Origin: Thiohalomonas denitrificans
GTDB lineage: Bacteria > Pseudomonadota > Gammaproteobacteria > Thiohalomonadales > Thiohalomonadaceae
Assembly: GCF_016841685.1 (NCBI RefSeq)
Contig: NZ_JAENYR010000034.1
Location: 1-36,962 of the forward strand
Length of the DNA: 36,962 nt
Direction of reading: 5' to 3'
Made by a program: the position numbers and the translations under genes
Shown here: one piece after another, positions 3,896 to 36,865 of the stretch
Numbering within the stretch: position 1 is the stretch's first letter
How the letters are laid out: each line of letters begins with the position of its first letter
Notes under the pieces: generated by a model
Database searches by the model: none
What the model was told of the DNA's origin: nothing
The model's input: only the letters and a program-made list of their open reading frames with translations

Positions 3896-3990
3896 CAACT
3901 GTTGAAAAATGCCCTCTTCCGAGGGAGAGGGCAGGAGGGGCTCGATAAGGTGAGTTACTGATTTTAGACCCCTTTATCCTAACCTTTTCC

Positions 3991-4093
3991 CGTCATCCCT
4001 GCGTCATCCCTGCGTCATTCCTGCGTTATTCCCGCGTTATTCCCGCGTTATTCCCGCGTTATTCCCGCGTTATTCCCGCGTCATTCCCGCGTA
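3991..4093. repeat. tandem array of an 11-bp unit (GCGTYATTCCC)
   Basis: About nine head-to-tail copies of an 11-base unit. The first are GCGTCATCCCT and GCGTCATTCCT, then five or six copies of GCGTTATTCCC, then GCGTCATTCCC. The unit equals the left arm of the REP-like palindrome that follows directly (CATTCCCGCGTAGGCGGGAATC), so it appears to be a local amplification of half a palindrome. No gene is seen in 3896-4396. Confidence 0.85.
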
Positions 4094-4348
4094 GGCGGGA
4101 ATCCAGAGCACAGAAGCATGGCTCAAAATGGATCCCTGCGATGACGGTCCCGACTCAGCGGCAGCGTGAAGGAGCCGTCCTGGATCCCCGCCTACGCGGG
4201 GATGATCGTCCTGACTCAGCAGCAGCGTGAAGGAGCCGTCTTGGATCCCCGCCTACGCGCCTACGCGGGGATGACGGCCACCGCTCGAAAGAAGACAGCT
4301 CGTCTAACGCTGGATCCCCGCCTACGCGCGCCTACGCGGGGATGACGG
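4081..4348. repeat. cluster of REP-like palindromes (GGATCCCCGCCTACGCGGGGAT type)
   Basis: Four palindromes in a row. One is CATTCCCGCG-TAG-GCGGGAATCC at about 4082-4103; three copies of GGATCCCCGCC...GCGGGGATGA begin at about 4182, 4244 and 4313. The loop grows stepwise: CCTACG, then CCTACGCGCCTACG, then CCTACGCGCGCCTACG. The first two copies also share the preceding text ACTCAGC(G/A)GCAGCGTGAAGG, so they arose by duplication of a roughly 65-bp unit. They resemble the dispersed extragenic palindromes of many gammaproteobacteria. Confidence 0.85.
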
Positions 4349-4389
4349 ATTTCCCGGGCCGTGCGTGATCACCCGGGCGAGCAGTTACG
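4341..4389 (-). repeat. end of a TIR element, family GTAACTGCTC (copy A)
   Basis: Read on the minus strand the end is CGTAACTGCTCGCCCGGGTG followed by a GC-rich stretch and CGTCATCCCCGCG. This matches the ends at 29439-29594 and 36846-36962. It lies seven bases beyond the stop codon of the CopD-like gene (4397). Its other end was not found; it probably merges with the REP cluster. Confidence 0.6.
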
Positions 4390-5814: not shown

Positions 5815-5876
5815 GTAGGAGCGGCGGAAGCCGCGAAAGGGCATCCCGACGCCATCGCGGCTTCCGCCGCTCCTAC
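5815..5876. repeat. REP palindrome with perfect 22-bp stem
   Basis: GTAGGAGCGGCGGAAGCCGC(GA) at 5815-5836 and its exact complement at 5855-5876 enclose an 18-base loop, between rpe and gph. It is the GTAGGAGCGGC-type extragenic palindrome; a diverged copy lies at 29289-29342. It could terminate, slow decay of, or punctuate the rpe-gph transcript. Confidence 0.9.
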
Positions 5877-28011: not shown

Positions 28012-29238
28012 ATGCTGAATACCCCTTTCGCTGATTGGCCCAGCTTCACCCTGGAGGAGGCTGAGGCCATCAAGGAAGTGTTGCTTTCCAATAAAGTCAA
28101 TTACTGGACGGGACAGGAGTGCAGGCGATTCGAGCAGGAGTTTGCTGCATGGTCGGAGAGTCGATATGCCGTCGCACTGGCCAACGGAACCATGGCGCTG
28201 GAGGTGGCACTACAAGCCGTCGGTATCGGTGCTGGAGACGAAGTGGTGGTCTCGCCGCGCAGCTTTATCGCATCTGCCAGCACAATCGTCAGAAGCGGCG
28301 GCACGCCCGTTTTCGCCGACGTCAACCGAAACTCCCAGAACATAACGGCTGAGAGCATTGAAAAGGCCATTACCTCCCGGACCCGGGGGATTATCTGTGT
28401 CCACCTGGCAGGCTGGCCGTGCGATATGGAATCGATCATGGCGTTGGCGGACCGGTATGGACTCTACGTGATTGAGGATTGTGCACAGGCCCATGGCGCC
28501 CGCTACAAGGGCAGGTCGGTAGGCAGTTGGGGTCATGCCGCGGCGTGGTCGTTTTGCCAGGACAAGATTATGACCACCGCAGGTGAGGGTGGAATGCTGA
28601 CCACCCAGAGCGAGGAAACCTGGTCCAGGGCCTGGTCTTATAAAGACCACGGGAAAAGCTTCGATGCGGTGTACAACAAGGAACATCCACCGGGGTTTCG
28701 CTGGTTGCATGATTCGTTCGGGACAAACGGCCGCATGACCGAAATACAATCCGCGGTTGGCCGCATACAGCTGACCAGAATGGAACAGTGGCATCAGGCA
28801 CGCCACCGCAATGCGCGGACTATTCTCGAAGCAGCGGGGGAGTGTCCGGCCCTGCGTGTTCCGGACACTCCGGACGGGATAGAGCATGGCTGGTACAAGT
28901 GCTATGTCTTTGTCGAACCCGAACGGCTGGCTTATGGATGGAATCGGGATCGCATAATGAACGAGATGAATCGCCTCGGTGTTCCTTGCGGTTCGGGGTC
29001 GTGTTCCGAGATCTATCGGGAAAAAGCTTTTGAAAAAATCGGCTGGAAACCTGGAAAGTCATTGCCGAATTCAAAGGAACTCGGCGAGACGAGCTTGATG
29101 TTCATGGTCCACCCCACGCTAACCGAATCACAGATTAGCCTGACCTGTGATGCACTGCAGGACGTAATGGCGCGTGCCGCAATGAAGATGCCGGCAACCC
29201 CGTACGACCGGCAGCACCATCACCCCGGCCTCTTGTAA
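28012..29238 (+). CDS. pglE: PglE-like UDP-4-keto-sugar aminotransferase (DegT/DnrJ/EryC1)
   Basis: A 408-residue PLP-dependent aminotransferase. LANGTMALEVALQAVGIGAGDEV (55-77) starts the large domain, D156 lies in VIEDCAQAHGA, and K185 in SFCQDKIMTTAGEGGML is the Schiff-base lysine. KDHGKSFDAVY and FGTNGRMTEIQSAVGRIQL complete the family pattern. This subgroup regularly accompanies PglC and PglD homologues, so it most likely aminates C4 of the 4-keto product of the PglF-like dehydratase. It differs clearly from the WbpE-type enzyme at 16167, which has the FFPSKPLGG lysine motif. The ATG follows AAGGAGCGAG. It is divergent from pglC. Confidence 0.85.
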   Translation: MLNTPFADWPSFTLEEAEAIKEVLLSNKVNYWTGQECRRFEQEFAAWSESRYAVALANGTMALEVALQAVGIGAGDEVVVSPRSFIASASTIVRSGGTPVFADVNRNSQNITAESIEKAITSRTRGIICVHLAGWPCDMESIMALADRYGLYVIEDCAQAHGARYKGRSVGSWGHAAAWSFCQDKIMTTAGEGGMLTTQSEETWSRAWSYKDHGKSFDAVYNKEHPPGFRWLHDSFGTNGRMTEIQSAVGRIQLTRMEQWHQARHRNARTILEAAGECPALRVPDTPDGIEHGWYKCYVFVEPERLAYGWNRDRIMNEMNRLGVPCGSGSCSEIYREKAFEKIGWKPGKSLPNSKELGETSLMFMVHPTLTESQISLTCDALQDVMARAAMKMPATPYDRQHHHPGLL

Positions 29239-29288
29239 CCAGTGCGACAAGCACGCTAGACACATGTTCCAAATTGGTGCCCATGCAT

Positions 29289-29342
29289 GTAGGAGCGACG
29301 GAAGTCGCGATAATGCCAAATCGCGGCTTCCGCCGCCGCTAC
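29289..29342. repeat. REP palindrome (GTAGGAGCGAC type)
   Basis: GTAGGAGCGACGGAAGTCGC(GA) at 29289-29310 pairs, with a few mismatches, with TCGCGGCTTCCGCCGCCGCT(AC) at 29321-29342. It is a diverged copy of the perfect palindrome between rpe and gph. Confidence 0.85.
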
Positions 29343-29438
29343 GTGAATCTCGACATGTCACCAAAGGAGCGTGTTTGGACACGATTTCAGAACAGCTATT
29401 TAGCCGACCCGCCCGGGTCATCCTGTTCAAGCCAATTG

Positions 29439-29594
29439 GTAACTGCTCACTCCCCCGTCATCCCCTGTCACCCCCGCGCAGGCGGGGGGTAGGCGGGAAT
29501 CCAGAGAGCAGCGGCATGGCCCGAAATGGATCCCCGCCTGCGCGGGGATGAGAATCTTCTATGCCGCGCATGAATCAACCGGGCGAGCAGTTAC
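29439..29594. mobile_element. MITE, 156 bp, TIR GTAACTGCTC, 8-bp target duplication (copy B)
   Basis: GTAACTGCTC at 29439-29448 and its complement GAGCAGTTAC at 29585-29594 bound the element. The octamer GCCAATTG stands directly outside both ends (29431-29438 and 29595-29602), as expected of a target-site duplication. Inside are two CCCGCGCAGGCGGG / GGATCCCCGCCTGCGCGGGGAT palindromes. There is no coding capacity, so it would depend on a transposase elsewhere. Ends matching the right side are at 4341-4389 and 36846-36962. Confidence 0.85.
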
Positions 29595-29732
29595 GCCAAT
29601 TGTTGAGTGCTTGTGGATGGAAGGGGAAGAGATGCGAGCCCCGGGGTCAGTGGGTAACCCGGGACTCGAAAACAGCCCGGTGGCAAGCGGCTTCAGGGAT
29701 GGGGCCAAACTATTGTTCACGGAGAACCCGTT

Positions 29733-31016
29733 ATGCAGGAACAGGCGTGTGCTTTGGTGCTGGATGGCAATCATCGTAATGCACTTGCAGCGACACGGGC
29801 GCTAGGTAAACAGGGATTCCGGGTGATTGTCGGTGATCCGAAACGCCTGTGTCTGGCAGGAGTTTCGCGCTATTGTGAGGCGACTCTGCAATACCCTGCT
29901 CCGGATGAAGAACCCGAAGGTTTTATCCGCACGGTGGCTGGTGCCCTGGAAACAGAATCGGTTGATTTCGTGCTACCGATGACCGACTCGACCCTCTCCC
30001 TGGTGATGAAAGCCAAAGAACAATTCGGCAGCCGTATCCCGTTCGGCCCCGAAACCGCTTTCGACATCCTCAGCCACAAGGGAAAGGTGCTCAAATTGGC
30101 CCGCGAGGTGGGGGTTGCCGTTCCGAAGAGCCGTTTGATGGAACCCGGGGTCGACTGCTCCCGTGTGGCAGGGGCAGTCGAACAGCTCGGAGGGTATCCG
30201 GTTGTACTCAAGCCCTGCCGTTCCAGCGTCTGGGCGGAGTCCCGGTATCTGGCAGGCAAGGTGGAGGTGATCAAGGACAGGCAGGGGCTCGAGACCGCAC
30301 TGGAAAACGGGCCTGCATTCCGTCACGGATCGTTTTTGGTTCAGGAAGTCATCGAGGGTTACGGTGCCGGCCTGTTTGTACTCTTTGACGGGAATGCCGG
30401 CCTGGCCTGGTTCTCCCATCGCCGACTTCGCGAGCGACCACCGGAAGGTGGAGTCAGTACACTTTCCGAAAGCGCGCCCTTCAGCTACTTGTTGCAGCAA
30501 TCGGCGGAACGCATTCTGCAAAAAGTCGGATGGCACGGACCAGCGATGTTCGAGTTCAGGGTCGCGCCTGACGGTATCCCCTATTTAATGGAAATCAATC
30601 CCAGGTTTTGGGGGTCACTGCAGCTGGCTCTGGACGCCGGCATCAATTTCCCGCTTTTGTCGTTCAATCTCGGGAAGCGGGATCGTGAACGAATCCGTTT
30701 CCCGGCTGTAAACGAATACAAGGTGGGTATTCGGAGTCGATGGTTCTTGGGCGACCTGCACCGCCTGTTGATGGTCTTCGGGTCCCGTGCCGATCGGGGA
30801 GCAAAGTTCAGGGCGTTATTGGCCTTTGTCAGTACGGCCGGAGACCTCAAGGCGCGAAATGCGGTGTTTCGCTTTGAAGACATCAGACCCGGTCTCTTCG
30901 AATTCCTGCAGTTTCTCCCCGGTGCCCACTGGATACTTCCCGAGTCCCGCATACTGAAGCACTCGGAACCGCAGATGTTCAACAAGTCCAAAGCACCTCC
31001 CTGGCGGGGCGGCTGA
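29733..31016 (+). CDS. ATP-grasp enzyme of unknown substrate
   Basis: A 427-residue protein with the carbamoyl-phosphate-synthase-like ATP-grasp fold. A preATP-grasp domain (1-110) opens with ALVLDGNHRNALAATRALG. The ATP-grasp domain has K160 in GYPVVLKP, VQEVIEGYGAGLFVLFDG, E274 in AMFEFR, and the metal-binding E287 and N289 in LMEINPRFWGSLQLALDAG. The C-terminal 120 residues are basic and unfamiliar. ATP-grasp ligases activate a carboxylate as acyl phosphate and join it to an amine, thiol or sugar. As the last gene of the glycan island, it may amidate a uronic acid or attach an amino acid; this is inference. The ATG at 29733 has a weak GGAGAA site upstream. Confidence 0.8.
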   Translation: MQEQACALVLDGNHRNALAATRALGKQGFRVIVGDPKRLCLAGVSRYCEATLQYPAPDEEPEGFIRTVAGALETESVDFVLPMTDSTLSLVMKAKEQFGSRIPFGPETAFDILSHKGKVLKLAREVGVAVPKSRLMEPGVDCSRVAGAVEQLGGYPVVLKPCRSSVWAESRYLAGKVEVIKDRQGLETALENGPAFRHGSFLVQEVIEGYGAGLFVLFDGNAGLAWFSHRRLRERPPEGGVSTLSESAPFSYLLQQSAERILQKVGWHGPAMFEFRVAPDGIPYLMEINPRFWGSLQLALDAGINFPLLSFNLGKRDRERIRFPAVNEYKVGIRSRWFLGDLHRLLMVFGSRADRGAKFRALLAFVSTAGDLKARNAVFRFEDIRPGLFEFLQFLPGAHWILPESRILKHSEPQMFNKSKAPPWRGG

Positions 31017-36436: not shown

Positions 36437-36865
36437 ATGAAGGCGCGTATCAAATGGGTCGAGCAGGCAACGTTCCTCGGCGAGGCGGATAGCGGCCATG
36501 CCGTTGTCATGGATGGCCCGCCAGAGCACGGTGGCCGCAATCTGGGCGTACGCCCCATGGAGATGCTGCTCCTCGGTATGGGCGGATGTACCGCATTTGA
36601 CGTGGTTCACATTTTGAAGAAAAGCCGTCAGCCGGTGAGCGATTGCGTCGCCGAAATCGAAGCCGAGCGGGCGGAGGACGATCCAAAGGTCTTTACGCGC
36701 ATCCACGTCCACTTCGTGGTAACCGGACAGGATCTGGATCCCAAGCGGGTCGAGCGGGCCGTGCATCTCTCTGCCGACAAGTACTGCTCCGCTTCCATCA
36801 TGCTCGGCAAAGTCGCCGAAATCACCCACGGATTCGAGATTCGGGGTAACTGCTTGCCCGGTTGA
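36437..36865 (+). CDS. OsmC/YhfA-family protein
   Basis: A 142-residue OsmC-fold protein. LLLGMGGCTAFDVVHILKKSRQ (about 45-66) holds the first conserved cysteine, and HLSADKYCSASIMLGKVAEITHGFEI (about 110-135) holds the second. Together they form the thiol peroxidase-type active pair. The YhfA-like subgroup, often beside crp, has no settled function. The last residues GNCLPG and the stop codon are encoded by the end of a TIR element (36846 onward), so the natural C-terminus may have been changed. The ATG at 36437 follows GGGGGCAGTTCA. It is divergent from crp. Confidence 0.9.
   Translation: MKARIKWVEQATFLGEADSGHAVVMDGPPEHGGRNLGVRPMEMLLLGMGGCTAFDVVHILKKSRQPVSDCVAEIEAERAEDDPKVFTRIHVHFVVTGQDLDPKRVERAVHLSADKYCSASIMLGKVAEITHGFEIRGNCLPG

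Follow-up and report, generated by a model that had tools for sequence, protein, structure and literature searches.

In the window analysed here (36,962 nucleotides of Thiohalomonas denitrificans DNA, contig NZ_JAENYR010000034.1), a 156-bp element at positions 29439–29594 is a transposon insertion, and its site is empty in a genome of the same genus, G001. As judged from its ends and from a candidate partner element, it is very probably a non-autonomous transposon of the miniature inverted-repeat transposable element (MITE) type that a transposase of the IS66 family moves in trans. The host genome (G000; 3.79 Mb, 160 contigs) carries dozens of dispersed copies of this MITE. The body of the element consists of two repetitive extragenic palindromes (REPs) in head-to-head orientation, and some sister copies are extended in increments of about 61 bp, each made of a further REP and an unrelated spacer.

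In the region from 29431 to 29602 the structure proposed in the initial annotation was confirmed, with perfect 10-bp terminal inverted repeats (TIRs), a perfect 8-bp target duplication and REP-like palindromes as the interior of a true transposable element. The MITE (plus strand) starts with the left TIR GTAACTGCTC at 29439–29448 (plus strand) and ends with the right TIR GAGCAGTTAC at 29585–29594 (minus strand), the reverse complement of GTAACTGCTC, with all 10 bases complementary. The duplication GCCAATTG lies directly outside on both sides, at 29431–29438 and 29595–29602 (no strand assigned). REP 1 (29457–29503, minus strand) is of the CGTC-1 type as defined in section 6 of PMC3733652; it bears the CGTC tag at 29456–29459 and a nested second palindrome at about 29467–29488. 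REP 2 (29527–29551, plus strand) is inverted relative to REP 1 and consists of the stem ATCCCCGC/GCGGGGAT, the loop CTGC and the tail TGG (CCA), so that an 8-bp stem starting with AT, a 4-bp loop and the CCA tail of the class were all found. The CGTC tag of REP 2 is damaged in the window copy, yet intact in most sister copies. In its common simple form the element measures about 136 bp and runs from the left end through a REP, a stretch of about 25 bp and an inverted REP to the right end; the window copy reaches 156 bp because the second palindrome is nested in its first REP. The predicted RNA fold of the element was better than that of 200 out of 200 shuffled sequences (z −4.58).

The empty site was found in G001, the sole genome of the same genus in our sample of 56. 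The joined flanks of the window element aligned to it over 61 bp at 87% without any gap and with a single GCCAATT; about 21 bp of this alignment, including the duplication, belong to the left side. Homology resumed with the right duplication, from its first base (29595) on, and the flanking gene was 94% identical between both genomes. Further to the left (29245 to about 29417) the two sequences differ. Relatives with the same sequence and no empty site had been named in advance as evidence against an insertion, and the opposite was observed. The term “recent” used in the initial annotation is justified by the absence of the element from a genome with a 94% identical flanking gene, but only as a relative statement.

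A BLAST search with the window element gave 61 matches in the host genome, with 40 of 139 candidates scored. The exact pattern GTAACTGCTCR occurred 84 times compared to 7 occurrences of the reversed control pattern, and exact paired TIRs with 100–130 bases between them were present at 7 places compared to 0 for the control. In the stretches of the host genome covered, 73 candidate end pairs were formed, in which one end was often paired with alternative partners. Using a cutoff of at least 5 of 8 flanking bases alike, 38 pairs were kept and 35 dropped, many such alternatives among the latter, and one false long pairing was removed by hand. Among the 37 retained pairs 31 matched at 7–8 of the 8 flanking bases, 18 of them perfectly, while random re-pairing of the same flanks yielded a mean of 0.85 and a maximum of 5 pairs at 7 or more of 8. 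Since the duplication itself serves as the selection criterion in the 5-of-8 cutoff, we regard 31 of 73 as a fairer count than 31 of 37. In either count, the search for paired ends with flanking 8-bp repeats suggested at the outset revealed many such copies, which speaks against the refuting outcome named there, that other copies lack any flanking duplication. Outside the host, an exact match to the MITE left end was not found in viral contigs, and a comparison of the MITE with plasmids gave one weak partial match.

An autonomous insertion sequence (IS) with the same TIR had also been anticipated. The IS66 DDE transposase family had a single match in the host genome. It sits in an element of 1,587 bp with GTAACTACTCGCCCCC at both ends, whose 488-amino-acid product matched PF03050 (6e-41) and NF033517, the IS66 family transposase model (9e-75). 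Its ends have 9 of 10 bases in common with the window TIR, and the exact start of the IS66 element, GTAACTACTC, is also that of at least 12 of 37 MITE copies. Since the sole IS66 transposase of the genome sits in an IS sharing 9 of 10 TIR bases, the window element is most likely an IS66-driven MITE. The partner presumably belongs to the group with a single open reading frame, tnpC only, which we take to be the ISBst12-like subgroup. The IS66 transposase would recognise the common GTAACTRCTC ends, move the MITE and generate the 8-bp duplication.

The body of the element, a REP dimer, together with 12 Y1_Tnp matches in the host genome, would also suit a REPIN-like dimer moved by a Y1 transposase (RAYT/TnpA-REP) instead of IS66. 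However, the CCGC..GCGG REP pattern was found at none of the 12 Y1 loci, with flanks covered up to 1.5 kb on either side, and REPIN/RAYT mobility was rejected on this ground. Moreover, the 8-bp duplications lie directly outside the TIRs and not at the REPs, and to our knowledge Y1 enzymes make no target duplication. Overall, we regard mobilisation by a Y1 enzyme as very improbable.

Several observations weigh against IS66 mobilisation or narrow its reach. The window copy has GTAACTGCTC where the IS66 element has GTAACTACTC, a difference of 1 base in 10. The flanks of the IS66 element share TTTTTCT and are thus alike over 7 bp and not 8; hence the anticipated IS was found with respect to its ends, but not with a complete 8-bp duplication of its own. 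A search of the host genome at up to 2 mismatches gave 201 REP matches, and of 100 listed ones 56 lay within 300 bp of an exact TIR and 44 further away. Consequently, many REPs are located outside recognised MITEs, and the MITE does not explain the whole REP population. Finally, transposition itself was deduced here from sequence and not observed. With the body being a head-to-head dimer of CGTC-1-type REPs, every transposition of the MITE would also plant two REP hairpins, and MITE transposition would be one spreading route for this REP type in the host genome.

The REPs of the window element belong to a known class. According to PMC3733652, CGTC-1 REPs include dRS3 of Neisseria, are defined by an 8-bp stem, a 4-bp loop, a CGTC tag and a CCA tail, were found associated with other palindromic sequence in H. 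neapolitanus and are reported to lack a dedicated transposase. The REPs described here share stem, loop and tail as well as head-to-head dimers and the association with a palindrome, and also the tag where it is undamaged. For a REP class said there to be without its own transposase, the MITE provides a concrete mobility route in one genome. REPs as the interior of a MITE are not without precedent. QMITE2 of Coxiella burnetii (PMC5896051) is a MITE of 150–190 bp with direct repeats of about 7–11 bp and a GTAG REP interior, and its short forms are plain REPs. The window MITE resembles QMITE2 in its REP interior, its similar length and its flanking direct repeats, and differs by a CGTC REP dimer instead of a GTAG REP, by an identified partner IS and by the spacer units. 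With QMITE2 already known, the REP-bearing MITE stands as a variant beside it; an IS66-type MITE with a CGTC REP dimer as cargo is new relative to QMITE2. Compared to the IS66 family, it has the same GTAA-type ends, a partner IS with an IS66 transposase and 8-bp duplications at the MITEs, but it lacks a transposase, and a REP dimer stands in place of IS66 sequence in its body.

Some sister copies are longer by one or more steps of about 61 bp, as from 136 to 197 bp or from 155 to 277 bp, and these copies contain extra direct REPs with unrelated spacers between them. A genome-wide pattern search of the host yielded 18 direct REP pairs; 13 had a period of 61, and the spacers were unrelated between most elements. 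One spacer was shared by MITE copies whose several insertion sites differ in flanking sequence, which indicates that the unit moves with the MITE. The inner REP of some copies would thus be extended by REP-plus-spacer units, which would then travel with the element. The ~22-bp tandem runs from half a REP (CGGTTCGCCTGCGCGGGGATGA) present in four host MITE copies (L037, L042, L080, L120) are a second way in which these MITEs grow.

Units of this kind were not restricted to the host. A collection of species genomes contained 20 stretches with direct REP pairs from varied bacteria, 8 at exactly 61 and 1 at 62. Among 369 genomes of the class, pairs were found in two beyond the host, G089 (already among the 20 stretches) and G073, the latter with 18 pairs, of which 10 at period 61 and 1 at 60 had unrelated spacers and 7 lay in short tandem arrays. 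Overall, pairs with a period of 60–62 bp occurred in ten genomes besides the host. Pairs were pooled by distinct spacer, and a pair was called tandem-like when its spacer had at least 60% similarity to a flank across 20 bases. Of 58 pooled pairs, the loci of which had been fetched within a bounded period range of about 40–77, 22 were tandem-like and 36 were not, with 25 of these 36 at period 61 and 29 at 60–62. A looser scan of the same loci at periods 40–90 placed 31 of 46 non-tandem-like pairs at 61 compared to 7 of 30 tandem-like ones. The spacers were mutually unrelated (mean identity 0.26), and the two REPs were identical in nearly every pair. Period 61 was absent from 50 kb of Photobacterium with 37 REPs and from a 50-kb stretch of Neisseria, which with 21 REPs (at up to 2 mismatches) had two close direct pairs at periods 54 and 70. 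Viral contigs contained no C-type REP pairs and 8 stretches with T-type REP pairs at periods 48–76, five of them representing the same 58-bp case. A description of 61-bp spacer units at REPs was not found in the titles and abstract openings of the open-licence papers returned by our searches.

Identical repeats with unrelated spacers of constant length, as seen here in 29 of 36 non-tandem-like pairs, are a feature of arrays of clustered regularly interspaced short palindromic repeats (CRISPR), and CRISPR-type spacer integration at a REP would be the best-fitting source of the units. The length of the duplicated block was estimated from 21 non-tandem-like pairs at periods 60–62, which came from ten non-host genomes, with G073 supplying 11 of the pairs. 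The third base before GGAT was alike in 15 of 21 pairs (permutation mean 5.7, P = 0.0004), the fourth in 3 of 21. As the match reaches base 3 but not base 4 upstream of a 25-bp core, the duplicated block would measure about 28 nt in these genomes, with about 33 nt new. The first and second bases after the core were alike in 10 of 21 pairs each (P = 0.03 and 0.02), which is above expectation, and the block may therefore be shifted in some pairs. According to PMC10011333, type I-E integration uses a 33-bp protospacer, and the 29-bp repeat takes its final base from the spacer, which likewise amounts to 28 + 33. The units resemble type I-E arrays in their unrelated spacers between identical palindromic repeats and, outside the host, in this estimated composition. 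They differ from them in their dispersal, with one unit or a few in a row at scattered REPs, and in that neither a type I-E cas1 gene nor a spacer source was found with them.

It is quite possible, if short of probable, that a type I-E-like Cas1–Cas2 integrates spacers off-target at REPs that look like CRISPR repeats, duplicating 28 nt of the REP and inserting a 33-nt fragment, with the MITE then copying the mini-array. The period of exactly 61, the ~28-nt block in the non-host genomes and the unrelated spacers all agree with such integration. Off-target integration by Cas1–Cas2 was reportedly described by Nivala in 2018. On the other side, the host's own 8 pairs do not fit the 28-nt register; upstream bases 2 and 3 were alike in only 2 of 8 pairs, with a shared block closer to 27 nt. 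A cas1 search of 22 genomes gave a match in 8. Among the 11 genomes with pairs at 60–62, several of them draft or partial, no type I-E cas1 was found. Five had a cas1 of another type (I-F in G000 and G396, I-C in G089 and G397, II in G394), with one further match without assigned type and one short untyped match in G089; in the other six, including G073 with its 11 such pairs, no cas1 of any type was found. The sole type I-E cas1 belonged to G401, the pair of which has a period of 51. Lost or visiting enzymes might explain why no type I-E cas1 was found.

No credible origin was found for the few spacers searched. Four G073 spacers were compared with phages and two of these with plasmids as well, while four 24-base spacer cores were compared with IMG/VR; weak matches to Synechococcus phages (E 0.9) and, over 22 bases, to plasmids of E. 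coli and Salmonella (E 9) were considered as chance. The Microcystis phage MaAM05 (MW495066.1) has 14 places similar to a REP-bearing query. A local origin was rejected as well, since BLAST of 33 spacers (periods 59–63) against 0.73 Mb returned, among the matches listed, only the arrays themselves or matches of up to 17 bases. The host possesses a type I-F CRISPR array of period 60 (L117:37-1447, contig C35) near a Cas1f gene; with its different type, unlike repeat and period, the host's own CRISPR was rejected as source of the units. As neither a type I-E cas1 in the eleven genomes nor a spacer source was found, a Cas1–Cas2 origin is put forward here only as a hypothesis.

Units in genomes where no cas1 was found would be expected if a non-CRISPR process with a fixed ruler were at work; REP clusters might recombine or be copied among each other, or another integrase might act. 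The same elements contain other tandem units of about 22 and 33–35 bp, and together with the 22 tandem-like pairs among the 58 these indicate that slippage or recombination acts on these REPs. Nevertheless, such a process alone does not account for spacers of one length but unrelated sequence, found in ten unrelated genomes between nearly always identical REPs, and no known enzyme of this kind can be named. We consider it a serious candidate that stops just below the probable. In that case, another process with the same ruler would insert fragments of about 33 nt at REPs. If the 61-bp units are the work of Cas1–Cas2, they would reveal possible starting points of new CRISPR arrays and open this question to tests with ordinary genome data. 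More generally, and tentatively, CGTC-type REPs in many bacteria may be ectopic landing sites for a CRISPR-type integrase, giving rise to arrays of two or three repeats (28-nt repeat, 33-nt spacer) that become mobile and are copied to other places in the genome if the REP is carried within an IS66 MITE. In this way, new CRISPR loci and orphan arrays would have a natural source.

The window contains a second, degraded and array-bearing member of the MITE family at about 3990–4388 (plus strand). Its right TIR lies at 4379–4388, a left TIR was not recognisable, and its REPs start at 4181, 4242 (61 bp apart) and 4311. The first two spacers of this copy resemble each other, and an 11-bp TTATTCCCGCG-like tandem run is found on its left side. 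Near the end of the window, at 36846–36859, the TIR-like match GTAACTGCTTGCCC differs from GTAACTACTCACCC by 3 mismatches and may be due to chance. The 156-bp element itself is located between a DegT/DnrJ/EryC1 aminotransferase gene (28012–29238) and an ATP-grasp gene (29733–31016). Beside it, at 29255–29403, and again at 5815–5876, a dispersed repeat of another kind was observed, the palindromes of which are of the GTAG type (GTAGGAGCG..CGCGA), and the copy next to the MITE has relatives at 85–90% at several sites in the host genome and in G001.
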